The position numbers were made by a program, and so were the translations under genes. The notes beneath the pieces are model-generated. The model was not told where the DNA came from, did no database searches, and saw only the letters and a list, made by a program, of their open reading frames with translations. Positions 27,744 to 64,000 of a stretch of 64,000 nucleotides of DNA are shown here, one piece after another; positions within the stretch are counted from its first letter, which is position 1, and every line of letters starts with the position of its first letter. The DNA comes from Bacteroidota bacterium (lineage in GTDB: Bacteria; Bacteroidota; Bacteroidia; UKL13-3): NCBI GenBank assembly GCA_947460345.1, contig CANHGM010000001.1:168518-232517 (forward strand), given 5' to 3'.

Positions 27744-27794
27744 CAAACTTTAGTGATTGAACAAAAATAATTCATAAAAACAATAAAGCGTAAC

Positions 27795-46700: not shown

Positions 46701-49700
46701 CATACTATGTAGGTTGGTTAAGTTATTTATATATATTGGATCTCCACTTTTTGAGTTTGCATTAAAAGTAGGGCTACCACCAGTAGCTGTTGAATATCCA
46801 CTTTGTCCTATAACAAATTTGTTTGAACCAGATGTATAATAGTTGTTATAATTGATAATTAAATTAGTGATAGGTGTGCCACTATTATAATAAAAATAAC
46901 AAGCATAGGTACCTGTACCAAAATTTGCAAATGAGTTATTTTTTATATCTAAGAAATCATACATTCCTGCACTTGTTTGTTGTATAAAAAACGCTGCCCC
47001 TGTAGATGTACTATTGACACTAACAGAATTATGATAAATTCTTAAATATCTACTAGCAAAGGTTGTAATAGGATTGATATAAATACCATAAGCACTTGCA
47101 GAAGAATGCGCTCCTCCAATCATATTGTTAAATACTGTAGAATATCTAGTCCCAGTTCCACTTTGGTAGTTGGCACTTGATAAAAACAATCCGTATTGCC
47201 CAAATTTATTGATGCTGTTGCCTTCAACCCTAAACGAGTCATTATAATCCATATATATACCAACTGCTGATGAACTTGAAGATGCACTCATGGTTATTAC
47301 GTTATTTAATATATCAATATTTCTTTGAAACTGACTATATATTCCATAAAAATAACTTCCCAATATTTGGTTATTGCGTATCTTATTTTTGTTTTCAAAC
47401 CTACTGATACTGGTGTTTCCTATTAAGTATACTCCATAGCTTCCATTGTTTATAATATTGCTATCTAAAGTAAATCTACTTAACGAATCAATAGCTGCAT
47501 TGCCTTGATTTATTACAGCTTCATTTAAACTATTAACTGTTGACACAGCAGAAGATATAATATTTGAAACTAACCTCACACTGTCTTGTGCAAGTGCAAA
47601 ACGTACTGCTGATTTAAAACTTCCTGAAGATGTGTTTGAAATGGTTAATCCTCTAAAAGTTATAAAACTAGTTCCATTTAAAAAGATAGTATGATTGTCT
47701 AATAATGAAGAATTTGTTCCAATAGTAATTACTACAGGTGAAAGATTTGTAGGGTCAGGCCTGAAAGTTATATAATTAGTAGCAGATGAACCTGAAATTG
47801 CATTTAATTGAATTCTTTCAGAATAGGTTCCTTGTCTTACATTAAAATATACTGGCCCACAAACACCTTTTGTATTTAAATCTGTTGCAGCAGCAGTAAA
47901 TGTTGCATAATCTGGAGACGAACCACCTATGGTATATACGCCGCTTAATTGAGCAGCAGGTACATATGTAATTGTATCATTTGAATTATTTTGATCTAAA
48001 CCCCCTGGTGTATTTAAATCTTTAACCCATACTTTAATAGTGTTAACACCAGCACCAAAAGTATAAGAACCTATATTAAGTGATGAAGTTGAAACACCTT
48101 GTGCTATTGAACCACTCCAAAAATAACTTGGGTATTTTTGAATACCATTCACTGACCATTTAATAGAATCAGATGTTAAAGTTGTTGAACCCATGTTTTT
48201 CATTGTAACAAAAACTGATGATGAACCACCAGAACATAAGGTAACAGGAGCATCAACACTTACAATTGTTGCGTCCAAACTATATGGATTAAATTCATCA
48301 CATCCAATATCTGGAACTAATGCACCTCCTGGGCAGCTGCCATTCGGACATCTTCTTTGCTTGTCGTAATCTGTTATTACAGGTGCATATACAATACCTG
48401 CATTATTTAGTGAACCTGAATTGGTGTGTAAATCTGTATTCGATGTGAATACAGGTGCAACATTTAAAGATGCTGCATCTTTTGTTGTAGCAACTCTCCA
48501 GCTGGCTATGGTTGTATAAGGTGTTGCTCCCACATATCCTATATAAGCACCAGTAGTATATAAGTTATTGTTATTGCATAATGTATAACTAGAAGGCACG
48601 TCCATTCTAACAGAAGGAGCTCCATTATAAGCCGCAAATACATTGTTTATGACTGTATCACTTGAACTTGAAACGGTTTCAAAAAATGCAGCTGATGAAG
48701 TATTTGCTGTTTGATTGGTTCCTATATTGACAGAGTTATGTGCATAAGTTGACCCATAATCATTAGATACTCTGATACCAAAAGTTGCATTGCTGCCTGA
48801 ACCTATTTGAATCATGTTGTTTGATATGACAGGTCTTTTGCCTGAAGTTCCAGAGTTTACACCAAAATAAGAATTGTGCATACCATGGCCTCCAACAGCT
48901 CCCCAAATTTTATTTCCTATGATCATAGGTTTATTTGAAGCAGCATTTATATATATCCACCAATTATACATTCCTAAATAGGTTGTTAAAGCAGAGTTAG
49001 TAGATATTCTGTTTTGAGTAAGTATTAAACCATTTAATTGATTGTTATATATACCACATGCGTATTGATTTGTAAAATCACAATTATTGTAGCATAAGTT
49101 TTCTGTACTTGTTGATGAACCAGAAGAAGTAAAATAAGAGCCATATGCACCATTATTTATTTTACAAGTATCAAAATACATAAATCTGTTGTTTCCTGAT
49201 GTTGAACTTATTACAGAAATATTATTAGAATTAGTTGTAGTTACAACACTATTAAATATTACATTATAAAATGAATCAGTTGTTGAGCTACCAGATATAG
49301 AAAGGGCAGTACCATATGTTGCGTTAGTTGCATTAATGGTTAAATTTTTAAATTTTATATAATTAACTCCTCCAAGTCTTACTGTATAATTTGCAGAACT
49401 ATTAGCATTGTATGTTAAAATACGAGTGGCAGCATTACCTGTTCCTCCATCAAATGTTACTGTGTTTGTACTTGATGAACCTGTGATTAATGATAAATTT
49501 ACTTGTTCATTAAATGTACCTGTTGCAACATTAAATTTTACAGGACCAGTTACACCTCCACAACTCAAAGCCGAAGCAACTGCATTAAATGTTTGAAAAT
49601 TAGTGGATGATGTTGGAATAGATGCATCTATAGTATAGTTACCATTCAGAACCGGACAAATAGTTGCACTCGCTGTATCATTAGCTAAATTTGCATCTCC

Positions 49701-51482
49701 AGATAATGCTGTAAAAACTTTTAAAGTATTGGTACCTGCATTTATAGTTATATTATTTGTAAAAGTAACAGTAACAGTATCGCAAATTGCCAATGATGGT
49801 GAAAAGCTAAACACTTGTGAATCCATAGGATTGCTATTTATGGTATAATATACTTTCATACTAGAAACCAAATTGGTTCCATAGTTTTTAACACGAACTT
49901 TTAGTGGTTGTATGCCTGTTGATACCGGAAAAACAGGAGAAACCAAACTATATAATCCAATATCAGAAGCAGGAGATCCTGTAGGTTCAAATGCTCCCAT
50001 ACTAGGAGGTGTTGGTCTGGATGTTCCATCGTAATCAGTTGTTATGCCTGTCAAACCAGACTGCCCTTTTAAGCAAGCTGTAGTATGGTGATAATCTGTA
50101 GATGATACAAATGATACATTATTATTCAAAGACTTAACCCCGCCTCCACTAGGATAGGCTACTGTATAGTTTGTTGAATTATAATTATTACCATTAATTG
50201 ATAATAATGTTCCACCCGTGTAGTTTGTATAATAATTATTATAGTCTATGCTGCCTACTGCCCCAGAGTTTGGAACATTTATACCTACATTATTTGCAGT
50301 TGCTGATGCATTATAAAATATATTGTTTTTAATAGATACATTAGCTCCAGATGTATTGTTTCCTAAGTCAATTCCATTTGAAACTCCTGAACCATAATCC
50401 ATATAAAAAGTGTTGTTAAAAATACTCCAACCACTAAAAGCACAGCATGCAGCACCCGACCCAGAAATGTAATTAGTGGCTCCTCTTGTACCTCCACCAA
50501 AAATATTATTATATATTCTACCATTAACTCCCGAACCACCTGCATAGGTTGTGGCAATACCATATCCATTTAGATTAGTGAATCTATTATAACTAATCTC
50601 AGAATACATAGAAGCACTTGGAGCTGGATTAGACCAAGACCAAATGGCAAATTGATTGCTGGCTCCTGTTCTAAGAGAAAAAGTATTGTTTAATACTTTT
50701 TGACATAAAGTACCTGCCAACCAAAAATATATGCTCGAATAATAAGCATTATTAAAACTATCTTTTCTAAATTGAATAATTGGATTGGTAGGTCCTGAAC
50801 CAATATATGTATATACATTGTAATAACCATAATTGATGATACATGTATCAATATTTAAACTATCAACGTTACTACTTGAAGTAGCCATGGCTGTTGTGCT
50901 TCCATTCACTACTATGCATGCTAAATTAGAAGCTGATGACGTTTGTGCAGAGCCAGTAAATTCTATTAAACAACCTGTAACACTACATTTAGATGAATTA
51001 AGAAAATTCACTATCCAACCATCTGTTGTACCTGAATTTTTAATTGCCATATTCCTAAAATAAATATATTGGCAGGCGTTTAACCTCAAGGTATGAGGAT
51101 TGGCATTAGTTCCAGCAAAGGTTAACAAAGTACTTGAAGTACCAGCTCCTATAAAGGTTACTTTTTTTGTAAAAGATACACCCGTAATTGCTGGTATATT
51201 TATTTGCTCAGTATAGGTATTGGCTGAAACATTAAAAATAGTATTTCCCGTGACACCTGAACCCGTATTATTACTAGGTCCACCATCTCCCCTTGCTATT
51301 CCTTGCAAATCATTCACTGCTGCAGTGAATGATTTATAATTACTAGCAGATGCTGCTGCTCCAGAGTTAATAGTATATGCTCCGCTTATTTGTGCAGTAA
51401 CATTTGTTTTGATTAACATTAGAATTATAAATAGTATAATACTTCTTTTTATAAAAGGTTTTAAAGTGAATAATTTTTTCAT
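43764..51482 (-). CDS. Giant T9SS-secreted beta-helix repeat protein (2572 aa)
   Basis: Signal peptide MKKLFTLKPFIKRS...NVTAQ (about 1-31). Four large modules start at about residues 32, 611, 1179 and 1748, each opening with a (L/I)SGxYTI-type motif (ISGAYTINS, LNGNYTIDAS, LSGVYTIGGS, LSGVYTVGGA). Each module holds a parallel beta-helix full of short Asn/Ser/Gly/Thr repeats (NGTSFITFRGLTI, RIYNNIF, GSIDYNNYYT) and ends in a CARDB-like beta-sandwich (VSPACPLLTGLQNVVLTFKN). A C-terminal beta region (about 2375-2490) precedes a type A sorting domain (ISIYPNPASEFLSIAY ... VFDLTGKLVSQL ... LTKGVYVVQISN). Right-handed beta-helices often bind or cleave polysaccharides; no catalytic set is recognisable, so an adhesin or matrix role is inferred. 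Paralogous to the next giant gene. Terminated by the hairpin at 43710. Confidence 0.93.
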   Translation of the reverse strand: MKKLFTLKPFIKRSIILFIILMLIKTNVTAQISGAYTINSGAAASASNYKSFTAAVNDLQGIARGDGGPSNNTGSGVTGNTIFNVSANTYTEQINIPAITGVSFTKKVTFIGAGTSSTLLTFAGTNANPHTLRLNACQYIYFRNMAIKNSGTTDGWIVNFLNSSKCSVTGCLIEFTGSAQTSSASNLACIVVNGSTTAMATSSSNVDSLNIDTCIINYGYYNVYTYIGSGPTNPIIQFRKDSFNNAYYSSIYFWLAGTLCQKVLNNTFSLRTGASNQFAIWSWSNPAPSASMYSEISYNRFTNLNGYGIATTYAGGSGVNGRIYNNIFGGGTRGATNYISGSGAACCAFSGWSIFNNTFYMDYGSGVSNGIDLGNNTSGANVSIKNNIFYNASATANNVGINVPNSGAVGSIDYNNYYTNYTGGTLLSINGNNYNSTNYTVAYPSGGGVKSLNNNVSFVSSTDYHHTTACLKGQSGLTGITTDYDGTSRPTPPSMGAFEPTGSPASDIGLYSLVSPVFPVSTGIQPLKVRVKNYGTNLVSSMKVYYTINSNPMDSQVFSFSPSLAICDTVTVTFTNNITINAGTNTLKVFTALSGDANLANDTASATICPVLNGNYTIDASIPTSSTNFQTFNAVASALSCGGVTGPVKFNVATGTFNEQVNLSLITGSSSTNTVTFDGGTGNAATRILTYNANSSANYTVRLGGVNYIKFKNLTINATNATYGTALSISGSSTTDSFYNVIFNSVVTTTNSNNISVISSTSGNNRFMYFDTCKINNGAYGSYFTSSGSSTSTENLCYNNCDFTNQYACGIYNNQLNGLILTQNRISTNSALTTYLGMYNWWIYINAASNKPMIIGNKIWGAVGGHGMHNSYFGVNSGTSGKRPVISNNMIQIGSGSNATFGIRVSNDYGSTYAHNSVNIGTNQTANTSSAAFFETVSSSSDTVINNVFAAYNGAPSVRMDVPSSYTLCNNNNLYTTGAYIGYVGATPYTTIASWRVATTKDAASLNVAPVFTSNTDLHTNSGSLNNAGIVYAPVITDYDKQRRCPNGSCPGGALVPDIGCDEFNPYSLDATIVSVDAPVTLCSGGSSSVFVTMKNMGSTTLTSDSIKWSVNGIQKYPSYFWSGSIAQGVSTSSLNIGSYTFGAGVNTIKVWVKDLNTPGGLDQNNSNDTITYVPAAQLSGVYTIGGSSPDYATFTAAATDLNTKGVCGPVYFNVRQGTYSERIQLNAISGSSATNYITFRPDPTNLSPVVITIGTNSSLLDNHTIFLNGTSFITFRGLTISNTSSGSFKSAVRFALAQDSVRLVSNIISSAVSTVNSLNEAVINQGNAAIDSLSRFTLDSNIINNGSYGVYLIGNTSISRFENKNKIRNNQILGSYFYGIYSQFQRNIDILNNVITMSASSSSSAVGIYMDYNDSFRVEGNSINKFGQYGLFLSSANYQSGTGTRYSTVFNNMIGGAHSSASAYGIYINPITTFASRYLRIYHNSVSVNSTSTGAAFFIQQTSAGMYDFLDIKNNSFANFGTGTYACYFYYNSGTPITNLIINYNNYYTSGSNKFVIGQSGYSTATGGSPTFNANSKSGDPIYINNLTNLHSMSSQLNDAGTNLLLVTTDIDGDTRPISPSVTVDMGADEYNIPQYNIGVSATVSPACPLLTGLQNVVLTFKNYGAATITSSNVNYKVGINGSVKTISWTGSLASTLSTNATFNGANQYNFTGMQIDTIFAWTDSPNGFADGYSGNDSLTYVIYQPLSGVYTVGGASPSFSNFTAVANALNCAGITGPVTFKVRAGTYTESISMAAITGSSSTNTITFESEAGVAANVILQTSSGAYTCRMTNTKYISFKNMTVRSATGNSFLINPSLGDSAYNVSITGCVLTSSWGGGTATAVIYANGNTPNLRIANNSITNSFGIALIGISSNINTYTRGIVLDSNNFNTSINDVYSPIYMYYANAPKIRYNTIARSASGGALTGDISNITGAMEFAYNKIHGQGVNGVKMQNMNINGETSPVLIHNNFMADNNANVDYYALDVENSNYVNIYNNSLYQHNNTATSYALRVYASAARSNIRIVNNNIVSNTSGTSSIPLSINGNTLANAKAQIAECNYNNYFVVGGTGVPLIKLFSTTYTSVAAMQGIVYTSPANNDMNSINVNPVFTNASASAVDLHIPAASALIGTGNILSSITNDIDNTPRAFPPCIGADEVNNVIRTNTSDYIVSSSCPTFSGSTWMNVRDASGNLVFAINPNGNNLGATCWGVRINGAVGLRTDSTKLYTTGVNTFGYLLDRNVYISPTTQPSTPVSIRFFSKNAELQELKDSVFNKYGTVINFSDIDISKYRGSVDLNPKNNSGSSSDFSLLNATAGAFGSDYYLEVSTSSFSEFNPSYVPSSILSPLPITMLSFIALPEGENGVLNWSTATEKDNDHFDIERSTNGIDYIKVGEVISQGNSISKLDYGFIDKSASSVASKLYYRIKQVDYNGTTTESDIRSIMFSKVTKTSISIYPNPASEFLSIAYNNLEVSERSTVKVFDLTGKLVSQLYIQTTQQTGVFELPLQKLTKGVYVVQISNSTFNQNVRFVKQ
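45000..51390 (-). repeat. Four ~1.7-kb coding modules (beta-helix plus CARDB-like) in the 2572-aa protein
   Basis: Module starts on the minus strand fall near 51390, 49650, 47950 and 46240, about 1.7 kb apart. Each begins with the GxYTI motif, then TFTAxxxxLxxxGxxGPVxFxV, an NTxTFxG box and a NDTxxxV linker. Protein identity between modules is moderate, with exact matches only in short boxes, so these duplications look old. Confidence 0.85.
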
Positions 51483-52208: not shown

Positions 52209-55200
52209 TTATTTTTTGAAAACTTTAGAAGTAATAACTTCTTCGCCGTTTTGTATTCTAATTAAATACATACCAGCAGCAAGTTCTGCAGTATTAAGAT
52301 TTACAATTGTTTTACCTAATTTGTATTGATTACTATTAGTATAAACAGTTTTACCATTAAGATCTAAGATACTAATAGTAACAAAAGCATCAGTAGATAA
52401 ATTAAGGTTTACATTTATTGATCCTGTGAATGGTTGAGGGTAGATACTACTTACATTCATAACAGAAGTAGGATAGATAGTTCTAACATCACTTAAAGTA
52501 ATATTGTCATCTTCATCTACCATTTCTAATTTATAATGAACAGGGCTACCTTTTGCTTTTGATAATACATCAACATCAGTGAATGAATAAGAAGTAGCAT
52601 TCATGGTATTTCCTGCAGCTTTCTTCATACCTACTTTAGTAAATGCACCATTACCGATACTTCTTAAAATGTTAAACTGTTTGTTATTGATTTCACTAGC
52701 AGTTACCCAAGTTAAGTCAGCATTTTTATCATTTGCAACTACTTCAAAGTTCATTAATTGAACAGGAAGTGGGTTAGTAAAGTTACTTGCACCAAATGAG
52801 CTAAAGCTATTTAATCCATTTAATCTCAAATAATTGTTTGTTGCATCAATTTCAGAAGCAGCGTGAACTTTCCATGCACCTAAACCAGCATCAGGAGCTT
52901 TAGCAATTTCCATTGCACTTTCTGATGGGTTACTTCCTAACAATGCATCATCATAGAAAACAGTTGCGTCATATTCATATGCACTTCCACCTACTGCAGT
53001 AAACTGAGTATAGAAGTTCATAAATTGAGCACTAGGGTTCAATCCATTATTTGTAGGGTCAGGAGGGTTAGTTCCACTCCAATATTGAACATTTAATGAA
53101 GTTGGAAGAGTAGCACCTGTACTTGCATGCCATTTTGTTCTAGCAATTAATCTTCCACCAAATGTAAATGTCAAACTATCGTTATTAGCGAAAGCGCCAG
53201 ATTGTCTTGCAAACGGTGGAGCTACAGTAGGTGTAAACTCATGAGCACCAATATCAGTTCCATAACCTAAAGTAGTTCCTCTTGGTGTGTTATTGTAATC
53301 AGTTGCAATATTACCAGAAGTAGTTCCAGCTATACCGTTACCATTTACATACCATGAAGCTTTAGTAGTGTTATTGATTGTTAAGTTACCTACATTTTTG
53401 TTAGTAAATAAACTATCAGCAACAACTGAGTCACTTAACTCACTCCAGCTATTAGCATCTTTACCAGTTGATGATTTCCATGTAGCAAAAGTTCTATCAA
53501 TTGCAGAGAAAGTTCCAATTTTTGTCAAGTTAGAAGAAACTAACAAGTTGTAATTAGAAGTTAAGTTAGTAGTAGAACTAATGTTCATTGAATAGTTATT
53601 AGTTGAACCACCTACTCTGTCTACATAAACTATATTGTTTACGAATCTATGAACTCCAGTAGAAGTACGTCTGTAACCAAATGAACTGTTAGAACCAGAA
53701 GTAGAAGTTCCACCAACATATATAGAATTGTAGTAGTAGTTTAATGTACTAGCTGACACATCATATAAACCATTAATAGTTACATCATTTGTGTTAGAAC
53801 CATTGCTTAATGCTATTTGGTTATTAGTATATGAAGTTGTACCTCCTAATGAATTATAGATACCATTAATAGAAGCTGAAGAATTAGAAGCATTGGTATT
53901 AGTCAATGCATAGATTCTATTTCTAGAAATTAAACCATTAGCACCACTGTTGTTATGGAACAATCCAATTACATTAGCATTTAGTCCATTAGCTCTTAAG
54001 TTATTAATATTATTTCTTAAGATTTCAGGAGAAGCTTGAGTTGTAGAGCTACTTAAACCTATACCTATTACAGCAGATGTTGCACCTAAAACAGTATTTG
54101 CATTTTCAGATACAATATTTGATACTGTATTTGAGTCAATCATAAATCTAGCAGCACTTGTAGCATTACCAGTCATGATACCATATGAAGTACTAGTAGA
54201 AAGTACACCAGTATAACCATTGTATAAGTTATTGATGGTGTTGCTTCTTACATAATGAATGTGAGAAGTTCCGCCTGCTGTTACTAAGATACCACCTAAT
54301 AAAGCTGGACCATTACTACCTGATTTGTTCTCAATGCTGTTTGTAATTGTAGCACTACCAATGTAGTTACTGTCTATAAAACAAGTAGAGCCATTAATAG
54401 CAGATGATAAGTGTTGAATACCTAATACCTCAGCTGAAGTACTTGCTCCTACTGCTACGTTAGTATATGATAAACCACCTATGGCATTGTTTTTAATCTT
54501 AGTGTTTACTGTACCGTTAATAATACGAATACCACAAACTCTAGATGCACCAGTTGCATTATAGTTGGTTACTTGTATAGAACCAGCAACAGCTGTATCT
54601 CCTAACATATTTCCTTTAGAAGGACCATCGCCACCTACTTCTGCATTACCAACTGATAGCAATACCGCAGCAAATGTTGATTGTAAACCTGCAGCATTTA
54701 TATGTACAGATATATTTCTAATAGTATTACCATATATGTATATAGGTAAAGTAGTACTAGGTGAATTTGTTCTAATTGGGAATACTTGGTTTAATTGACC
54801 ATTAGGAACAGTAGCGTCACCAATTTGGTAAATTGAACCCGCAATACCAGAGATACTACCACCTATTTCATTACCTTGAACCAAGTGGCCACCTTCAGTA
54901 GTATTGTTAAAGAAGATACCATGAACATTGGTAGTAACTGCACCTACTGGTAAGTTTATCATAGTTTGAGTAAACTTGTTGTTTAAGATATTCCAAAATC
55001 TATCATTACCTAAGTTTAAAATACCAGCTACGTTAGCAGAACCACTTACAAACACATTCAAGAAGTTGTTATTTCTGATAGTGATGTAGTCGTTTTCTTT
55101 AGCAGCAGTTCCACTAGCATTAATATGAGACAATGGAGTAGAAGTAGACATATTGAATTGGTTATATTCAAATGTGTTACTGTCATTACCAGTGGTTGCA

Positions 55201-58200
55201 GTTGTAGTAGAAATACTTACAGTACCTGTAGCGGTATTGTTACTAAACAAGTTACAGTAACGAATTGTATCACAAGTTGCATCATTGGTCATTACCATAT
55301 TAGAGAATGCAACACTTGAAGTGTAGATATTCATGATTCTAGAAGAACCTGTACCACCAGCTCTACCATCAAATGTAATGTATTTAGCACCATTTAAGTT
55401 GATTGCATGAGCACCAGTTACATTAATCCAAACACCAGTGTCACCTGAAGCTGGTCTGAATGTAACACCTACAGTTGGGCTAGAACCCGGTATTTTACCT
55501 ACAAAGTTTAATTGGTTAGTATATACCCCGTCAGCAATATCAACAGTTACATTTCCTGCGATTCCACAATTGTAAATACTGCTTACAAAACTACTTATAG
55601 TTAAGAAATTTGTATTTGAAACAGGTAAGGTAGGGTTTACAGTATAGGTACCTGTGTAAGGTGTACAATAGGTATTTTGAACTGTATCATTGGTATTGTC
55701 TTGGTCTGCATTACCACCATTGATGTTACCGTTGTATACTTTCATAATAGTGTTACCTGCAGGGAACATAGTTTGAACTGAGAATGAGAAGTTAGCAGAG
55801 TCACATGGTTGAATAGCAACACCTGGCGTAAATGTTTGTGATGTTACAGAACCATTAATACTATAGTTCATCACAACGCTAGTTACTGGAGTATTACCAA
55901 AGTTTTTAACTCTTGCAGTAATTGTGTAATTAGTTGCTGAAGCTATAGAAGTAGAAGCAGGGCTAATTACCAAAGTAGTAGCTACATCATAAGTATTAGC
56001 TGTGTATTCGTCAGCTCCAATGTCTGGAGTAGTAACACTACGGGTAGTATTATCAATATCTACAGTCATTAATGATGTAACTGGAGTACCTTGGTTATCC
56101 ATACAAGATTTGTTTATAATATGTAAATCTGATATAGAAGTAAACGTAGGACTCACCGAAACTGAGTTAGCATCTCTAGATGAAGTAGATTTCCATGTAG
56201 TTAAGGTTGAACATGCAGTACTTGTGTTGTAATAACCTAAAACGGCACCAGTTGAGTACAAATTGTTGTAGTTAAAGTTAGTGTACATACTATTTATATC
56301 TAATCTTACAGCAGAACCACCAGCAGAAGCAGTGAATATGTTGTTATTGATTGTGTTTTGGTATGAACCATAACCTTGTTGGAACCAAGCTGCAACTGAA
56401 GCATTAGATGCTAAAGAAGATGTCATGTTAATTGTGTTATATACATAATCAACTCCATTATCTTGAGAATTATACATTCCATATGCTGAATTGCTACCTG
56501 CACCTATTTGTATAAAGTTGTTTGCTACTAAGTATCTTCTTGCTGGAGTAGATCCTCCAGAGTTAACACCTAAGTAGTAGTTATACATACCATAACCACC
56601 TACTGCACCACTTATTTTGTTACCAGTGATGATGGTTTTATTGGCATCTGCCAATACCATTACCCAATAGTTATATAATCCATAATAATTTGTATATGCT
56701 GAATTAGTTGTGATGGTATTGTTTTTAATTACAACTCCATCTACATATTGGTTCATTATACCCATATAGTATTGATTTGTAAAGGTATTACGTGTGTATG
56801 TAGTTCTTTGAGCAGAAGCACCAAATGAACTACTAGAAGAAGAGTAGTTATATACACCATAAGCACCATTGTTAATTACACATGTATCAAACACCATGAA
56901 GCTAGACACATTTGTTCCAGAGGTATTAGTAGATATAACCGCTAAGTTTTGACCAGTTGAAGTAGTAGTAACACCATTGAAAATTACATTTTGGAATGAA
57001 TCGCTTGATGCATTAGCTGTATAGAACAAGGCTATACCATAAGTGGTGTTTTGAGAATTGATACTTATATTTTTAAATCTCACAAAACTAGCACCAGCTA
57101 ATGATAAAGTATAGTTATTAGTAGAGTTAGCATTAAATGTTAAGATTCTAGTAGCAGCATTACCTGCACCACCATCAAATGTGATCGTGTTAGTTAATGA
57201 AGAACCTGAGATACCGCCTAAAGTTACTTGCTCAGTATATGTACCAGCAGCAACATTTATAACCACCGGACCTGATACACCACCACAAGACAATTGACTT
57301 GCAACAGCTGTAAAGGTTTGGAAGTTAGTAGCCGAAGCAGCAATTGAAGCATCAATAGTATACACACCTGACATTGAAGTACAGAAAGTAGCGTTTAAGG
57401 TATCATTTGAATTGATTGCATCACCAGCTAAAGATGTATACGTTTTAATTGTATTAGCACCTGAACCAACAGTAATATTAGAACTGAAAGTAACAGTTGC
57501 AGTATCACATTGTGCTAAAGCTGGGCTAAAGGTAAATGTTTGAGATACTGGTGATCCTCCATTAAAGATATAAGACATGCTTAAACTAGCAACTGATGCA
57601 GAACCGTTGTTTCTAACCAACACTTTCAATGGTTGAGAACCAGCTGAAACCGGAGATGACGGCGTAACAATTGAAGAAGCTTGCATATCATTTGCAGGAG
57701 ATGTTGTGTTCTCATCAGCACCCATATCAGGAACTGAAGGTCTTGTTGAACCGTCAAAGTCGATAGTAGTTAATGTTGATAAGTTAGTACCATTGTTACA
57801 CACACTTGAAATATGTAAATCTGAAGTAGAAGTGAAACTAGGAACCACATTGATAGAATTTGCATCAGTAGTGATAGTTGCAGCTTTCCAAGCATTGAAG
57901 TTAGAATAAGCAGAACCACCTATGAATGCAAAGTTTGCACCTGCAGTGTAATATTGGTTATAGTTAACAGTTGGGTAGTAAGTGAAGTTATCAACTCTCA
58001 TAGATGGAGCACCATTGTATGCAGAGAAGATATTGTTTTGAATTGTATTACTTCCATATGCAGTTCCAGTGAATTGAGCTGCCCCAGAAGCATTGGTACT
58101 TTGAGAAGTACCTACGTTTACTGAGTTAAATATATAATCTACACCATTGCCATTACCTTCACTTAATCCAACAGCTTGGTTTGCACCAGAACCTATTTGA

Positions 58201-61200
58201 ATCATATTATTAGAATATAAGTATCTTCTAGCAGTAGTGATTGATGAATTTACACCATTGTAGAAAGAATAAATACCAATACCTCCAACAGCACCAGATA
58301 TTTTATTACCTGATACAGATGTTTTATTGGCATCAGCTCCACACATAATCCAATAGTTATTGATTCCATTGTATGAAGTAAATGCTGAGTTTGTGGTAAT
58401 GATATTCTTATTAATTATGATACCATCTAAATATTGGTTATAAACACCCATATAATATTGGTTAGTAAGTGTGCTTCTAGTTAATGTAGTACGTTGAGAT
58501 GAAGAGCCCAATGAACTACTTGAACTAGAGTAATTATACATACCAAATGATCCATTATTAATCACACAAGTGTCAATAACAATATCATTAGAAACGTTTG
58601 TACCTGAAGTAGGAGAACTTATAACGGCATATTGTTGTGAGGTAGAAGACATGTTTATACCATTAAAGATAACATTTTGGAATGAGTCATTAGATGCATT
58701 GTTATAGTAATACATAGCAGTACCATAAGTAGTATTGGTGGCATTGATGGTCATATTCTTAAAACGAATAAACCTTGCACCATTTAATCCTACAGTAAAG
58801 TTGTTGGTTACGTTAGCACTAAAAGTAAGTATTCTTGAAGCTGCATTGCCTGCACCACCATCAAAAGTAATTGAGTTGGTATTAGATGCATTAGTTATAG
58901 CAGGAATAATCACTTGCTCGTTAAAGGTTCCAGTTACTGTAAATTTAATAGGTCCAGAAACACCACCACATGTATTTAATGCAGCTATTGCACTAGCAAA
59001 TGTTGTAAAGTTTGTAGAAGAAGCAGCTATGGTATTGTTAATGGTATAGTTTCCAGAAATACCCGGGCAGAAAGTGAAAGTTAAGGTATCATCTGTATTA
59101 TCTCCATCACCTGAAGCCACACCCCATATTTTCAAAGTATTTGAACCAGAAGCAATAGTTATTTGAGGAGTAGTGAAATTATAAGAAGTAGTATCTAAAG
59201 ATACTAATGAACCAGTGTAAGCAGTAGTTACAGCAGCACCACCATTGAATTTAAATCCAATAGTTGCGTTTGTAATCGTATTACCACCATTATTTTTAAC
59301 ATTTACTCTAACATTGAATGTACCAGTTGAAGTAGGTAATGAAGGAGATAACAATAAGTTAGCACCCATGTTATTAGGAACTGGTCTTTCATAACCACCC
59401 ATGTAAGGTAAAGTAACACTTCTAGGTCTTCCGTCGATATCTAAAGTCATCAACGATGCTAAAGGAGTACCAAATTTCAATGAAGTATTGTTATGAGTTA
59501 ATACAGTGTTTGAAGTAAATGCAGGAGCAACGTTAATAGAGTTTAAATCTCTTGCAGAGTTAGTTCTCCATATTGCAATAGTACCACAAGCAGTAGAAGT
59601 ATTGTAATAACCTAATGTACTACCAGTGGTATATAAATCATTATAGTTACAAGTACTATACATACCATTGATATCCATTCTAATAGAAGCTGCTCCATTG
59701 TATGCAGCAAAAATATTATTTTGAATAGTGTTTTGGTATGATCCATAACCTTGTTGGAAGTATGCGGCAGCAGAAGTATTAGCTGTTTGAGATGTACCAA
59801 TGTTAATAGAGTTATAGATATAATCAACTCCATTATCTTGGTTATTATACATACCAATTGTAGCATTTGCACTAGAACCAATTTGTATATAGTTATTAGC
59901 AATTAAATATCTTCTAGCAGGTGTTGACCCTCCAGAATTTACTCCTAAATAGTAGTTATACATACCATAACCACCCACAGCACCAGATATTCTATTGTTG
60001 GTGATGATGGTTTTGTTAGCATCTGCTAATACCATAATCCAATAGTTATAAATACCATTATAATTGGTGTAAGCAGAATTTGTAGTGATAGTATTTCCTT
60101 TAATAACTACTCCATCCATATATTGGTTTTGGATGCCTATATAGTATTGGTTTGTTAAAGTACTATTACTTAAAGTAGTTCTTTGAGAAGAAGAACCTAA
60201 AGAACTGCTACTTGAAGAATAGTTATACATACCTATTGAACCATTATTAATAGTACAACTATCTATTACAATATCGTTAGATACATTTGAACCTGAAGTA
60301 GAAGAGGTAATTACAGAATATTGTTGTGAAGTAGAAGTTGTACTTATACCATTGAAGGTAACTTTAAAGAATGAGTCGTTAGAAGCATTACCAGTGTATT
60401 GCATGGCAGTACCCCAAGTACCATTGGTAGCGTTTATAGTCATGTTCTTAAAGCGAACATAATTTGCACCGTTTAAGTTTACTGTATAGTTAGCCGTTGA
60501 TAATGTAGAAGAGAAAGTTAAAATTCTAGTTGCAGCATTACCAGTACCACCATCAAAGTTTACCGTGTTGGTAGCAGAAGTACCTAAGATTGCACCTAAG
60601 TTTACTTGTTCAGTATAAGTATTTGCAGCCACGTTAAATGTTACTTTACAAGATACACCCGAAGCATTTAGCATGCTTACAGCACTATTAAAGCTTGTAA
60701 AATTAGTAGATGAAGGGGCTATAGAACTGTTGATGGTATAGTTACCACACAAAGGCACACTTAACGTATTAGAAGTAAAGGTATCATTTGGAGGGAAAGC
60801 ATCTGATGTACCGTTTGGACTATCAGAGAATGCTTTTATCACATAAGATGTATTTGCAGCAAATGTGTAAGCACTACCTCCAGAGAAAGTAACGTTAGTA
60901 GTTGCACCTGCAGCTAAAGAACCTGTCCAAGCTTGAGAAACGATAGAACCACCATTTACTCTGTAGCTTACGTTAGCAGAAGTAACTGTGTTTGTACCAT
61001 TATTTTTCAAAGTAGCTACTATATTGTTTGAACCAGCAACCAAGTTTGGATTAGCAGGAGTTAAAGCTGAAATTGATACATCATTAGCCACACCAGGATT
61101 TTCTTGAGCACCAATATCAGTTGAGGTTCCTCTTGAAGTACCAGCATAGTCTATAAGAACAGAAGATATTCTAGGTACGTTTCTAGAACCATCTCCAATA

Positions 61201-64000
61201 TTAAGATTGGTGTTTGATATAAAATAAGGATTTCCAATTATTGAGTTTGCATTGTAACCGCTATGACCAATTAAAGATGATAATGGAATACCTGTACCAG
61301 ATATTGAAGCAACTATAGTTGAAGATGTTGCACTTGAGTGATAGAATAAGTTGTAGTTAAAACTAGCATTATTAATTGCAAAATAAATATAACCGCCATT
61401 GTCTTGAGTATAGAATCTAGCTAAAGAACTTGCACCTGTAATAGCAAAGATATTATTTCTAATATCAAATGTTGTAGAACCTGAAGTACAACATGTATTA
61501 CTCCAGATACAAGTAGCAGAAGTTGTTGCATTGGCCACATCTAGGTTAATAGTATTGTGGAAAATATCCCAGTTGTAGAATGAAGTTTGAGGCATGTAGA
61601 TACCGATTGCAGAAGTACTTCTGAAACCGCCTCCTATCATGTTGTTAGCCATTAAACCTCTGGCAGAAGCAAATGCAGTAGTACCAGTTAAGTATATACC
61701 ATATTGACCCATATTGATCATTTTGTTACCAGAAATAGACCAAGTTCTAGCAGCAGAACTTGCGTTAGGACAGTTTTGAACAGCTATACCATAACTACCA
61801 GTTGTGTTGGTATTTAAAGTGATATTGTTTCTATCAATTGTTCCACCATTGATGCCTTGAGCAAAAATACCGTATTGGAATGCATTGGTAATGGTATTAT
61901 TTCTGATAATATTACCTGAGTTGTTTACATTGCTTGAACCATATAAACCAACTGACAAATAACCACCAGCAATGGTATTAGAATCGATATTACAATTGGT
62001 AAATAAACCATTAGTGGTATAAGAAGTAGCACTTCCGTTCATTAATATTCCAATATAATTGGTACTATTAAAATTAGTAACTGGAGTACTTCCAAAATCA
62101 ACGATACAATTATTGATATTGATATTAGAATCTACTAAAGTACTTAACAATTGAACAGGCCATGCATTAGTTCCATTGGCACGTATAGTTAAGTTTCTAA
62201 TAGTCACATATTTTGAGTTAGTTATACGAATTACGTGTGAATTAGCAAGCGTAGAACTTGTAAACTGAATGGTACGAGAAGCAGCATTACCATTACCACC
62301 ATCAAATGTGATGGTATTAGTAGCAGAAGCTCCAGGAGCATTTAATATCTCTACTTGTTCAGTATAAGCAGTAGCACCCATAACTGTAAAAGTTGTTGCA
62401 CAACTTACTCCAGAAACATTTAATCTAGAAACTGCAGAAGTAAAACTTACAAAATTGGTTGAAGAAGCTGGGCTTCCTTGGTCAATGGTGTAACTTCCAC
62501 ATAGAGCAGGAGAAACAGTAGTAGTTATGGTATCATTTCCTTTAAAAGCATCTGTAGTTCCATTAGGGCTATCAGAATAAACTACTAAAGTATAGTTCAC
62601 TCCATTACTAAAAGTAACTGGAGAACCAATTGAGACATTAGTAGAAGCACCAGGAGCTAAAGAACCAGTCCAAGCAGTAGTAGCTAAACCACCACCATTA
62701 ATAGTATAAGATACGTTAGCACTGGTTACAGTATTAGCACCATTGTTATTTATAGTAGCTTGAATAGTGTAATTACCAGCAGCAAAAGGAGAAGCAGGAG
62801 CCACTAAAGCAGTTACTCTAATTTCGTTATTTGGTGTTGGAGCCTCATAAGCACCAGGGTCAGTATTTACTGGACGAGCTGTACCATCATAGTCAGTAGT
62901 AGGAGTAGTTAATCTAGGAAGATTGTTACCTGTGTTATTGATATGAAGATCAGTTGAAGAAATGAAGAATGGATTTCCAGTGATTGAGTTAGAGTTTAAA
63001 GCACCAACTCCACCGTTATACCCTATGAATGATGTTGCCGTTAAAACCGTACCACCTTCATATCCATAAGAAGATGAAGAACCACTTCTGTATAACCAGT
63101 TATAGTTCATCATAGCACCTGCGTTTGAAATAGCATAGTAAGCACCATTACCCATATAATAACAATATGAAGTAGAAGATGCATTTGTAACAGCTAATAT
63201 GTTGTTTTTCACTTGTAAGTTAGTTGTAGCATTAAAGTTACAACATTGTGACATATTTAAACAAGCACTGCTACCACCAGAGTTAGCATTGTCTAAGTTA
63301 ATGGTGTTATGGAATATATTCCAATTTAAAATAGTACCATTAAAATAGATACCGTTTGCATTGGTACTTGTAAAACCACCACCTATAAGGTTGTTGAAAA
63401 TAGATCCACGTGAGGTAGCATCAGCAGAACAACTAGTAAAGAACATACCATATTGACCTACATTGTTAATTTTGTTTCTAGAAATAGAATACGTATTAGC
63501 AGATGATAGAGCGTTACAATTTTGGAAATACATACCATAACTACTTGTAGTTCCTCCAGAACCAGTAGCTAATGAACTTACGATATTTCTATCGATAGTA
63601 CCACCGTTTAAGTTATTAAAGTACATAGCATATTGGTAAGAATTAGTACAAGTATTGCCTGTAAATACGTTTGCATTACTAGAAGTAGCACCATAGTTCA
63701 TAGTCGACCAAATATTGCTATAACCACCATTGATGGTATTTGAGTCTATAGTATTGGTACTTAAGTTTCCTTGAGTATTATATGAAGTAGCATTACCATT
63801 TAATACAATACCTTGGTAGTTGGTAGAGGCGAAACTTCCAGTAGATGTTGCACCAAAGTCGATAATACAATTTTTAATGGTATTAAAATTACAAGCAGTA
63901 GAACCTAACAAGTGAACAGGCCAAGCATTTGAACCGTTACCACGAATAGTTAAGTTTCTAATGGTGATATAATTTAAGTTATTGATACGAATAGTGTAAG
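52209..64000 (-). CDS. Giant T9SS-secreted mosaic beta-helix protein, N-terminus beyond the window
   Basis: The frame is open to the right edge, so at least 3929 residues are encoded and the start is outside. From right to left there is one partial module and five more starting near 62495 (CGSYTIDQGS), 60745 (CGNYTINSS), 59050 (ISGNYTINNT), 57367 (MSGVYTIDAS) and 55648 (YTGTYTVNPT), spaced about 1.7 kb. Each holds a parallel beta-helix (IRNLTIRANGTNAW, GYGMYNYYLGVNSGG, NTIQNNIFAAYNG) and a CARDB-like sandwich (ASSIVTPSSPVSAGSQPLK). The module starting near 55648 is different and longer. The C-terminus has a ~120-residue beta domain and a type A sorting domain (SSIYPQPFTGSINVNL ... ILDLNGKTVYT ... 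LAAGMYLIRIQNG). No catalytic residues are recognised. TATATA runs are scarcer here than in the rest of the window, and Asn codons seem richer in AAC, suggesting strong expression or a different history. Confidence 0.93.
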   Translation of the reverse strand, partial: YTIRINNLNYITIRNLTIRGNGSNAWPVHLLGSTACNFNTIKNCIIDFGATSTGSFASTNYQGIVLNGNATSYNTQGNLSTNTIDSNTINGGYSNIWSTMNYGATSSNANVFTGNTCTNSYQYAMYFNNLNGGTIDRNIVSSLATGSGGTTSSYGMYFQNCNALSSANTYSISRNKINNVGQYGMFFTSCSADATSRGSIFNNLIGGGFTSTNANGIYFNGTILNWNIFHNTINLDNANSGGSSACLNMSQCCNFNATTNLQVKNNILAVTNASSTSYCYYMGNGAYYAISNAGAMMNYNWLYRSGSSSSYGYEGGTVLTATSFIGYNGGVGALNSNSITGNPFFISSTDLHINNTGNNLPRLTTPTTDYDGTARPVNTDPGAYEAPTPNNEIRVTALVAPASPFAAGNYTIQATINNNGANTVTSANVSYTINGGGLATTAWTGSLAPGASTNVSIGSPVTFSNGVNYTLVVYSDSPNGTTDAFKGNDTITTTVSPALCGSYTIDQGSPASSTNFVSFTSAVSRLNVSGVSCATTFTVMGATAYTEQVEILNAPGASATNTITFDGGNGNAASRTIQFTSSTLANSHVIRITNSKYVTIRNLTIRANGTNAWPVQLLSTLVDSNININNCIVDFGSTPVTNFNSTNYIGILMNGSATSYTTNGLFTNCNIDSNTIAGGYLSVGLYGSSNVNNSGNIIRNNTITNAFQYGIFAQGINGGTIDRNNITLNTNTTGSYGIAVQNCPNASSAARTWSISGNKMINMGQYGIYLTGTTAFASARGLMANNMIGGGFRSTSAIGIYMPQTSFYNWDIFHNTINLDVANATTSATCIWSNTCCTSGSTTFDIRNNIFAITGASSLARFYTQDNGGYIYFAINNASFNYNLFYHSSATSSTIVASISGTGIPLSSLIGHSGYNANSIIGNPYFISNTNLNIGDGSRNVPRISSVLIDYAGTSRGTSTDIGAQENPGVANDVSISALTPANPNLVAGSNNIVATLKNNGTNTVTSANVSYRVNGGSIVSQAWTGSLAAGATTNVTFSGGSAYTFAANTSYVIKAFSDSPNGTSDAFPPNDTFTSNTLSVPLCGNYTINSSIAPSSTNFTSFNSAVSMLNASGVSCKVTFNVAANTYTEQVNLGAILGTSATNTVNFDGGTGNAATRILTFSSTLSTANYTVNLNGANYVRFKNMTINATNGTWGTAMQYTGNASNDSFFKVTFNGISTTSTSQQYSVITSSTSGSNVSNDIVIDSCTINNGSIGMYNYSSSSSSLGSSSQRTTLSNSTLTNQYYIGIQNQYMDGVVIKGNTITTNSAYTNYNGIYNYWIMVLADANKTIITNNRISGAVGGYGMYNYYLGVNSGGSTPARRYLIANNYIQIGSSANATIGMYNNQDNGVDYIYNSINIGTSQTANTSAAAYFQQGYGSYQNTIQNNIFAAYNGAASIRMDINGMYSTCNYNDLYTTGSTLGYYNTSTACGTIAIWRTNSARDLNSINVAPAFTSNTVLTHNNTSLKFGTPLASLMTLDIDGRPRSVTLPYMGGYERPVPNNMGANLLLSPSLPTSTGTFNVRVNVKNNGGNTITNATIGFKFNGGAAVTTAYTGSLVSLDTTSYNFTTPQITIASGSNTLKIWGVASGDGDNTDDTLTFTFCPGISGNYTINNTIAASSTNFTTFASAIAALNTCGGVSGPIKFTVTGTFNEQVIIPAITNASNTNSITFDGGAGNAASRILTFSANVTNNFTVGLNGARFIRFKNMTINATNTTYGTAMYYYNNASNDSFQNVIFNGINMSSTSQQYAVISSPTSGTNVSNDIVIDTCVINNGSFGMYNYSSSSSSLGSSSQRTTLTRSTLTNQYYMGVYNQYLDGIIINKNIITTNSAFTSYNGINNYWIMCGADANKTSVSGNKISGAVGGIGIYSFYNGVNSSITTARRYLYSNNMIQIGSGANQAVGLSEGNGNGVDYIFNSVNVGTSQSTNASGAAQFTGTAYGSNTIQNNIFSAYNGAPSMRVDNFTYYPTVNYNQYYTAGANFAFIGGSAYSNFNAWKAATITTDANSINVVPSFTSTSDLHISSVCNNGTNLSTLTTIDFDGSTRPSVPDMGADENTTSPANDMQASSIVTPSSPVSAGSQPLKVLVRNNGSASVASLSMSYIFNGGSPVSQTFTFSPALAQCDTATVTFSSNITVGSGANTIKTYTSLAGDAINSNDTLNATFCTSMSGVYTIDASIAASATNFQTFTAVASQLSCGGVSGPVVINVAAGTYTEQVTLGGISGSSLTNTITFDGGAGNAATRILTFNANSTNNYTLSLAGASFVRFKNISINSQNTTYGIALFYTANASSDSFQNVIFNGVTTTSTGQNLAVISTNTSGTNVSSFMVFDTCVINNGAYGVYNYSSSSSSFGASAQRTTYTRNTFTNQYYMGIMNQYVDGVVIKNNTITTNSAYTNYYGLYNYWVMVLADANKTIITGNKISGAVGGYGMYNYYLGVNSGGSTPARRYLVANNFIQIGAGSNSAYGMYNSQDNGVDYVYNTINMTSSLASNASVAAWFQQGYGSYQNTINNNIFTASAGGSAVRLDINSMYTNFNYNNLYSTGAVLGYYNTSTACSTLTTWKSTSSRDANSVSVSPTFTSISDLHIINKSCMDNQGTPVTSLMTVDIDNTTRSVTTPDIGADEYTANTYDVATTLVISPASTSIASATNYTITARVKNFGNTPVTSVVMNYSINGSVTSQTFTPGVAIQPCDSANFSFSVQTMFPAGNTIMKVYNGNINGGNADQDNTNDTVQNTYCTPYTGTYTVNPTLPVSNTNFLTISSFVSSIYNCGIAGNVTVDIADGVYTNQLNFVGKIPGSSPTVGVTFRPASGDTGVWINVTGAHAINLNGAKYITFDGRAGGTGSSRIMNIYTSSVAFSNMVMTNDATCDTIRYCNLFSNNTATGTVSISTTTATTGNDSNTFEYNQFNMSTSTPLSHINASGTAAKENDYITIRNNNFLNVFVSGSANVAGILNLGNDRFWNILNNKFTQTMINLPVGAVTTNVHGIFFNNTTEGGHLVQGNEIGGSISGIAGSIYQIGDATVPNGQLNQVFPIRTNSPSTTLPIYIYGNTIRNISVHINAAGLQSTFAAVLLSVGNAEVGGDGPSKGNMLGDTAVAGSIQVTNYNATGASRVCGIRIINGTVNTKIKNNAIGGLSYTNVAVGASTSAEVLGIQHLSSAINGSTCFIDSNYIGSATITNSIENKSGSNGPALLGGILVTAGGTSHIHYVRSNTINNLYNGYTGVLSTSTSYGIMTGNATSAARFMIDSNTVSNIVSENANTVLGATSAVIGIGLSSSTTQASPEILRNNINNLRANGLNANVIGLFHNNSGANGLISRNRIYALTNTNASNSSASINGIYNSLGGTTSYTNNQIALSNGSNTNDVTINGLYDVSASTLNYYYNSIYVGGTSTSGSNSSFGYRRTSTGVHRFVNNIVYVDRVGGSTNNYSMNISSTTNLTSNYNLLVSSNLTKIGTFSAIDRTFATWKSSTGKDANSWSELSDSVVADSLFTNKNVGNLTINNTTKASWYVNGNGIAGTTSGNIATDYNNTPRGTTLGYGTDIGAHEFTPTVAPPFARQSGAFANNDSLTFTFGGRLIARTKWHASTGATLPTSLNVQYWSGTNPPDPTNNGLNPSAQFMNFYTQFTAVGGSAYEYDATVFYDDALLGSNPSESAMEIAKAPDAGLGAWKVHAASEIDATNNYLRLNGLNSFSSFGASNFTNPLPVQLMNFEVVANDKNADLTWVTASEINNKQFNILRSIGNGAFTKVGMKKAAGNTMNATSYSFTDVDVLSKAKGSPVHYKLEMVDEDDNITLSDVRTIYPTSVMNVSSIYPQPFTGSINVNLNLSTDAFVTISILDLNGKTVYTNSNQYKLGKTIVNLNTAELAAGMYLIRIQNGEEVITSKVFKK
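55640..62500 (-). repeat. Tandem ~1.7-kb modules within the giant gene
   Basis: Four consecutive modules have starts near 62495, 60745, 59050 and 57367, and the last ends near 55650. Unlike the older modules of the neighbouring giant gene, some segments here are close to identical in DNA. For example 56580-56605 and 59950-59975 share agttatacataccataacc and flanking bases, and SSSSSSLGSSSQRTTL recurs at the same place in two modules. This points to recent duplication or conversion. Confidence 0.9.

Follow-up and report, generated by a model that had tools for sequence, protein, structure and literature searches.

Mosaic histories of beta-helix and CARDB domains among the modules of a predicted giant type IX-secreted protein

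Intragenomic recombination has been described for adenylation domains of NRPS, an enzymatic assembly line, and there both donor and recipient were identified and put to biochemical test (PMC9205934). Others have described Giant1-5 of Apilactobacillus kunkeei—extracellular proteins 3,000-8,000 aa long that carry beta-solenoid domains, recombine within genes and exchange sequence between genera (PMC12863079)—and Embp of the Gram-positive Staphylococcus epidermidis, a giant multivalent adhesin with fibronectin-binding repeats (PMC9302970). The usual explanation for giant repeat genes is tandem duplication. In the open-licence PMC literature we found no study joining gene conversion, beta-helices, CARDB domains and T9SS adhesins, and no title on a helix–CARDB module family; the profiles PF07705, PF18962 and TIGR04183 cover the CARDB and sorting domains, and none describes the repeating helix–CARDB module.

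Here we analyse such modules in a giant gene (g1) of a Bacteroidota bacterium, the 3' part of which lies in a stretch of 64,000 nucleotides (“the window”). As in the passages on NRPS, the specificity-bearing part appears to have been replaced by that of a different module or gene in the same genome, its neighbours keep their history and the breakpoints lie inside the module; unlike the NRPS case, the product is predicted to be secreted and is probably adhesive, the exchanges are old and their unit would be a whole beta-helix (PMC9205934). The g1 product resembles Giant1-5 in being giant and, by prediction, extracellular, with beta-solenoid domains and intragenic recombination, but whereas Giant1-5, as described, set an N-terminal beta-solenoid on alpha-helical repeats and recombine between strains' genes, here each protein has seven to ten helix modules, which appear to be swapped between positions (PMC12863079). 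Embp, whose repeated binding modules give it multivalent attachment, is our model for the valency idea below; the g1 product has a comparable row of putative binding modules, though the passages on Embp describe no module exchange (PMC9302970).

Layout and predicted fold of the giant gene

Within the window g1 occupies positions 52209..63998 on the minus strand (3929 codons); it runs beyond the window to the contig end at C1:235893 and then, via a 149-bp exact overlap, onto contig C15. The genome is a draft of 76 contigs, and g1 is interrupted at a contig end. The full frame of 5426 aa holds seven full modules; each joins a right-handed beta-helix to a CARDB Ig-like domain, about 562 residues (about 1690 bp) together. 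We write Mn for the module at position n, and B, C and D for g1 modules 5, 6 and 7. The starts of these three, originally predicted near 60745, 59050 and 57367, were located at window positions 60746, 59054 and 57368. All on the minus strand, module 4 (60747..62498) precedes B and has a helix of the M3/M4 type; B (59055..60746) combines a type-X helix with the position-5 CARDB domain; C (57369..59054) has a type-X helix, its back half nearest C10_M1 and G004_M1, and a CARDB domain in the M1/M6 group; and D (55653..57368) has a type-X helix and a CARDB domain orthologous to module 7 of the related genomes G004 and G016. A degenerate module 8 and a T9SS type A sorting domain form the C-terminus (52212..55652, minus strand). 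The sorting domain is recognised above cut-off by both PF18962 (1.3e-12) and TIGR04183 (1.7e-11), the N-terminus on contig C15 is hydrophobic, as judged by eye, and the same genome encodes the SprA translocon (TIGR04189, 2451.6 bits; cut-off 200). By these sequence features, the type IX secretion system is predicted to export the g1 product, a giant protein, to the cell surface. A second modular T9SS gene (g2; 43764..51482, minus strand; 2572 aa, four modules) also has a type-X helix, in its module 2 (g2_M2, 47943-49643).

AF2 models of B and of G004_M5 (pLDDT 89.8 and 92.9) both consist of a beta-helix, a linker and an Ig domain. In B, the predicted helix, which is the exchanged cassette, spans about aa 35-400 (59547..60644, minus strand), and the Ig-like CARDB domain, orthologous to module 5 of G004 and G016, about aa 460-560 (59067..59369, minus strand), a region predicted as all-beta and matched by Foldseek to CARDB 3idu (TMt 0.67). 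The CARDB profile PF07705 reaches 61.9 bits on the whole protein P0001 (cut-off 22.7; best stretch 396-488); among single modules C (19.7 bits) and D (18.6 bits) stay under the cut-off and B gives no match. In a structure search run with libraries other than the viral one, the B helix matched the AlgE4 A-module (Z 29.2 over 321 residues, rmsd 2.9) and 7osf (Z 29.5), and its matches at Z 24-30 are for the most part beta-helices that are carbohydrate-active or bind sugar (AlgE4, PL6, GH136, phage tailspikes), together with the adhesin PfbA. Judged by this fold, the helices probably bind carbohydrate, likely polysaccharide. The helix residues invariant across all 45 aligned modules are Asn, which suggests core ladders and not a common active site.

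Helix and CARDB histories against orthologous genes

Orthologous seven-module genes, equal to g1 in module number and order, occur in G004 and G016; the relatives named here are environmental Bacteroidota and Ignavibacteria metagenome assemblies. In the CARDB tree (aa 430-564), g1_M5 groups with G004_M5 and G016_M5, and g1_M7 with G004_M7 and G016_M7 (UFBoot 100 each), the positional grouping of M6 being mixed with M1. In the helix tree (aa 81-400; 27 of 94 modules, author-chosen, in both trees), g1_M5 joins g1_M7 instead (UFBoot 100) and G004_M5 and G016_M5 fall in another clade. AU tests reject positional orthology of the helix for M5 (dlnL 188, p 2.8e-6) and M6 (dlnL 133, p 2e-119), and reject the M5+M7 grouping for the CARDB part (dlnL 107, p 2e-58). 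Identities between g1 and G004/G016 follow the same division: at positions 1, 2, 3, 4 and 7 helix and CARDB agree (47-61 and 49-66%), while positions 5 and 6 share the mismatch (helix 21-27%, CARDB 50-61%; position 5 alone, 27 and 57-61%). Where a single consistent tree was looked for, the helix and CARDB trees proved incompatible.

The back half of C resembles sequences outside B and D (85% to G004_M1 and 75% to g1_M1 at aa 341-380). D retains its own type-X helix and, on sequence grounds, is the likely donor for the back half of the B helix. The B helix might instead have been imported, by horizontal transfer or homologous recombination, from a relative with a type-X helix already at position 5. 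Type-X-like helices do occur in other family genomes (8 of 64, the window's own included, match B at E <= 1e-80), and the helix of g2_M2 has G013_M5 as its sister (UFBoot 100); the back half of the B helix, however, is sister to D (UFBoot 100) and nests next to the M7 orthologues, which favours an internal donor and makes import rather unlikely. Among the 64 family genomes searched there was no second genome of the same genus.

A nine-module gene, with the same module order in four other genomes (G009, G020, G014 and G017), has its helix replaced at position 5 only, in G009 and G020. There the helix is 20-28% and the CARDB domain 47-54% identical to G014/G017; positional orthology of the helix is disfavoured by an AU dlnL of 396, and for the CARDB part a grouping with the relatives of the helix, whether G019_M2 (7.8e-7) or g1_M7+G016_M7 (5.6e-5), is rejected (trees of 26 of the 94 modules, author-chosen). 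This is an independent helix replacement.

The original prediction had proposed recombination between modules in place of simple stepwise tandem duplication. Several tests reject one common tree for the modules, and orthologues in two related genomes independently show exchange. Module number and order are equal in g1, G004 and G016, as gene conversion or double crossover would leave them; stepwise tandem duplication alone does not account for this. What the prediction lacked is the unit, which appears to be mainly the whole beta-helix domain, with sub-exchange inside the helix. We therefore regard as very probable a fixed CARDB scaffold with helix cassettes exchanged between modules by conversion or double crossover. 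The CARDB parts are position-specific and vertically inherited, the helix of module 5 would have been overwritten by the module 7 kind in the window's lineage, and module 6 carries the module 1 kind. As expected of conversion, the joints lie inside homologous repeats, copy number and order are kept, and the donor is still present. The donors seen are all modules of open frames; programmed cassette systems for antigenic variation are marked by silent donor copies, a dedicated recombinase and frequent switching.

Unequal crossing over with compensating loss later would equally yield chimeric modules jointed inside homologous stretches. It must, however, gain and lose modules and yet leave exactly seven in three genomes and nine in four others, with the order shared within each set, and the joints on both sides of the B helix would require two crossovers; we consider it improbable.

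Patchwork and breakpoints within module B

Exchange between modules is also visible within the helix of B, where the predicted switch of closest relative between adjacent and alternate modules is real: B is nearest C in front (aa 89-197, 85/109 aa) and nearest D at the back (aa 205-399, 142/195 aa). In the NVSNDIVID segment (B aa 154-169, window 60287-60240), B and C agree as predicted (14/16 residues) and D differs (10/16 with B, 12/16 with C). In the GYGMYN...GYYNTSTAC segment (B aa 259-387, window 59972-59586), B and D are indeed closest and C stands apart (B-D 92/129 aa, 74% of bases; B-C 70/125 aa, 62%; C-D 60/125 aa, 58%), but to call B and D nearly identical was too strong at 71% of residues; in their best 50-codon window identity rises to 92% aa and 82% nt.

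Specifically, 3SEQ-like tests place breakpoints of B (all minus strand) at the N-side of the cassette (aa 38-52, approximate and weak, the aa 1-80 tree being mostly unsupported; 60591..60635), inside the helix (aa 197-205, C-like before and D-like after; 60132..60158) and at the C-side (aa 434-439; 59430..59447), in the predicted linker between helix and Ig domain. Within the helix, column permutation with B as child of C and D gave p = 5e-5 either way, the lowest value that 20,000 permutations allow. Seventeen triplets were run, including seven controls, five of which were not significant; g1_M1 was borderline (p 0.041), and G016_M4 with G016_M3 and G004_M4, itself likely an exchange, was clearly significant (p 5e-5 / 0.008). 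In recombination-free simulations on the helix tree (three triplets, 500 alignments, simulated free of gaps and of rate change along branches), none of 500 reached the observed statistic of 20 with B as child (null maximum 13), nor did any with D as child; C as child gave no signal (474/500 reached it).

Nucleotide trees of 14 author-chosen type-X modules, cut at breakpoints estimated from the same data, unite B and C over aa 89-197 (UFBoot 98; B+D rejected at AU 0.0016, C+D at 0.012) and B and D over aa 205-399 (UFBoot 100; B+C rejected at AU 2e-66). The front breakpoint is the weaker one, because B+D is not rejected on the protein segment aa 81-200 (AU 0.12).

Tandem, clearly homologous modules of about 1690 bp with similarity varying along their length could also suggest stepwise duplication with unequal rates, B and D looking alike where C diverged faster. 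Yet in its back half C has close relatives elsewhere besides being far from B and D, all 500 one-tree simulations stay below the B/C/D statistic, and the helix and CARDB trees of B conflict; we give this reading very little credence.

Age and extent of helix exchange

The exchanges are old, not recent, a point on which the original prediction was silent. Recent gene conversion was sought by sliding nucleotide identity and NG86 pS in 50-codon windows and rejected, no high-identity tract being found; the lowest pS among the six pairs of M1, M5, M6 and M7 was 0.36 (M1-M7). Synonymous differences in the exchanged tracts are near saturation (pS 0.57-0.63, against 0.64-0.81 between orthologues), so only old conversion, and no recent homogenisation, can be claimed. 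Conserved module ends may have served as homology arms for the conversion or double crossover; today DNA identity between helix types at these arms is only 52-64%, too low for efficient homologous recombination.

The draft state of the genome and the break in g1 might suggest that short-read assembly fused pieces of different modules, but the longest identical stretch among the genome's six type-X modules is 26 bases (B-D), too short to mislead an assembler with a contig overlap of 149 bp, and the G009 replacement recurs in the separate genome G020, which makes an artefact hardly credible. Nor does convergent selection for the same ligand merit more than a passing mention: type-X copies do share residues missing from other types (e.g., W236, in 14/14 type-X against 0/79 others), but the likeness extends over about 300 residues and reaches 82% of bases, as convergence is not known to do, and is spread over the whole helix instead of being confined to a surface patch.

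Exchange of helix cassettes, our preferred reading, appears to have gone further within this genome. On the ML tree for the front half of the helix, the type-X copies of g1 and of the C10 gene, which lies on another contig, form one group of five, and AU tests reject positional orthology of M7 (0.00033-0.0046, three data sets); for the back half, monophyly of these five is rejected (AU 0.0002). The front part of these helices appears to have been further homogenised within the genome, with g2_M2 falling outside the group. The window's genome has six type-X helices, spread over three genes; in six relatives the compared genes have one or two. One ligand-binding helix would have been multiplied in a fibre of constant length, giving higher valency or swapped specificity.

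More broadly, we tentatively suggest—and hold it as possible but on balance doubtful—a cassette system in which helices are binding heads traded among positions, unlinked giant genes and species on a position-locked CARDB frame, copy number being set at constant fibre length and the window's genome representing valency amplification. Such a system would offer surface proteins a testable route to alter binding repertoire or valency at constant length, as NRPS modules alter substrate. Because same-layout orthologues separate the part inherited by position (CARDB) from the part that moves (helix), exchange is visible even after silent-site saturation. In a scan of 91 of the 94 modules (g1_M8, G019_M5 and G022_M9 left out), the nearest helix partner differed from the nearest CARDB partner in 53, with many near-ties; nine modules passed a flag by which the first partner of either part lies outside the other's top three, both over 45%.

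Helix and CARDB parts follow different histories

The giant gene g1 occupies 52209-63998 on the minus strand and runs off the window; in its own draft genome the frame extends to where contig C1 stops (5055 aa), and its start is supplied by contig C15, whose first 149 bases equal the C1 end, for a full frame of 5426 aa. Since the two contigs overlap by exactly 149 bases (L032:15146-15294 and L044:1-149, inside g1 module 1), C15 is probably the chromosomal neighbour of C1. The protein carries a GEVED domain close to its N-terminus, seven full modules (543-586 aa each), a degenerate eighth, and a T9SS type A sorting domain. Three modules (5, 6, and 7; hereafter B, C, and D) were the subject of the original prediction. 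The AlphaFold2 model of B (mean pLDDT 89.8) predicts a right-handed beta-helix (~aa 35-400, module numbering) joined through a linker to an Ig-like domain (aa 460-560; fold names from structure searches).

Two genomes of the same family (G004 and G016) have a gene with the same seven-module count and order. At positions 1, 2, 3, 4, and 7, g1 resembles these orthologues about equally in helix (47-61%) and CARDB part (49-66%). Positions 5 and 6 differ: the similarity of the CARDB part stays at about the usual level there (50-61%), but that of the helix drops to 21-27%. Consistent with this, the CARDB part of B joins both module-5 orthologues (UFBoot 100) while its helix joins D (UFBoot 100), and swapped placements are rejected (dlnL 107-188). 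At position 6, the three genomes differ mutually in their helices (21-32% identical) and share CARDB parts at 50-54%. The orthologues thus point to an exchange larger than the patchwork originally proposed. In G016 (L036), module 4 is closer to module 3 of that genome than to G004 module 4 across most of the helix, with a switch near aa 455—likely another exchange.

In the nine-module gene of four further genomes (G009, G020, G014, and G017), modules at the same position resemble one another, apart from position 5 of G009 and G020, where a helix of the kind found in B, C, and D ("type X") is 20-28% identical to the others and the CARDB part is of the local kind (47-54%). There, AU tests reject the helix as orthologous by position (dlnL 396), and they also reject placement of the CARDB part with the relatives of its helix. 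By these sequence comparisons, this position represents an independent case of helix replacement.

Shorter exchanges within the helix

The original prediction held that the closest relative of B changes along the module from C to D, through recombination between modules. This switch stands: B matches C at 85/109 residues and D at 63/109 in the front (aa 89-197), and D at 142/195 and C at 107/191 in the back (aa 205-399). Both column permutation and comparison with 500 simulated alignments make it significant (in the simulations not when C is set as the child), and it is supported by nucleotide trees built separately on either side of the estimated breakpoint. The segment where B and D had been called "nearly identical" agrees at only 92/129 residues, and in the protein data for the front half alone B+D is not rejected (AU 0.12).

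On the ML tree of the front half, all five copies from g1 and contig C10 form one group. Across three data sets, positional grouping of module 7 is rejected there (AU 0.0046, 0.00033, 0.0024), and that of module 1 gives AU 0.020, 0.046, and 0.17. A single group of the same five copies is rejected for the back half (AU 0.0002). Because these copies group in front and not in back, tracts below helix length, of about a hundred codons, were exchanged as well, homogenising copies within this genome and extending to a gene on a different contig. The type-X copy in module 2 of g2, the second modular gene in the window, falls outside this group.

Direction, age, and mechanism

Position 7 is type X in 3/3 genomes (g1, G004, and G016), position 5 in the window's genome only, and the back half of B's helix nests beside D, adjoining the module-7 orthologues; the simplest reading would thus be a copy from position 7 to 5 in the window's lineage. 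As the back half of C's helix is closest to module 1 of G004 and module 1 of another same-genome gene (contig C10), its donor may have been either module 1 or a different gene.

The shape of the trees places the exchanges after the split from G004 and G016, yet they are old: pS is 0.57-0.63 in exchanged tracts and 0.64-0.81 for g1 vs orthologues, where random codons give a ceiling, as an upper bound, of 0.87. Cross-type DNA identity in this genome is 52-64% at aa 1-78, 53-58% at aa 435-463, and 33-54% in between, and the outer breakpoints of B coincide with the higher-identity zones (near the module start and aa 435-463). This placement fits helix exchange guided by homology at module ends. 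As present identity is low and domain borders would predict the same placement, we infer gene conversion rather than observe it directly. A ComEC-like competence gene in the window (25530-27746) makes uptake of relatives' DNA a possible further source.

Putative function, precedents, and neighbouring genes

Structural neighbours of the helix are chiefly polysaccharide lyases, epimerases, hydrolases, and phage tailspikes, with the adhesin PfbA among them (Z 24-30; also from Foldseek). Because the invariant helix residues across all 45 aligned modules are Asn, they suggest core ladders rather than a common active site, and from the model the helix is a putative binding head. Type X, which has a signature of its own (W236 in 14/14 such modules vs 0/79 others), accounts for six of the 19 modules in four genes of this genome (degenerate g1 module 8 left out), and, by tree assignment within the analysed genes of each relative, for 2/7 each in G004 and G016, 1/9 each in G009 and G020, 1/10 in G013, and 1/5 in G019. 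Given multivalent giant adhesins such as Embp (PMC9302970), amplification of one putative binding head here would be a reasonable hypothesis.

Recombination inside giant surface genes is known in A. kunkeei (PMC12863079), and exchange of a module's specificity part in NRPS A domains (PMC9205934). For beta-helices exchanged on a CARDB frame that is locked by position, searches of the open-licence PMC literature gave no published account.

Adjoining g1, g2 (43764-51482) has four modules of the g1 kind. Another giant modular gene lies at about 55-65 kb of C15; the third giant modular gene (L034, 4994 aa, six modules) is on this contig, and its module 1 helix is 76% identical to g2 module 1 and 64% to G004 module 6, hinting at exchange between genes. 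Beside both giant genes in the window lies further type IX cargo (39848-43399, plus strand) with DUF7948, PKD domains, and a CHU_C sorting domain. Elsewhere in the window, two 147-bp copies (1943-2240, 96% identical) sit within frame 1079-2443, ahead of the domains through which this frame matches an S4-domain pseudouridine synthase.
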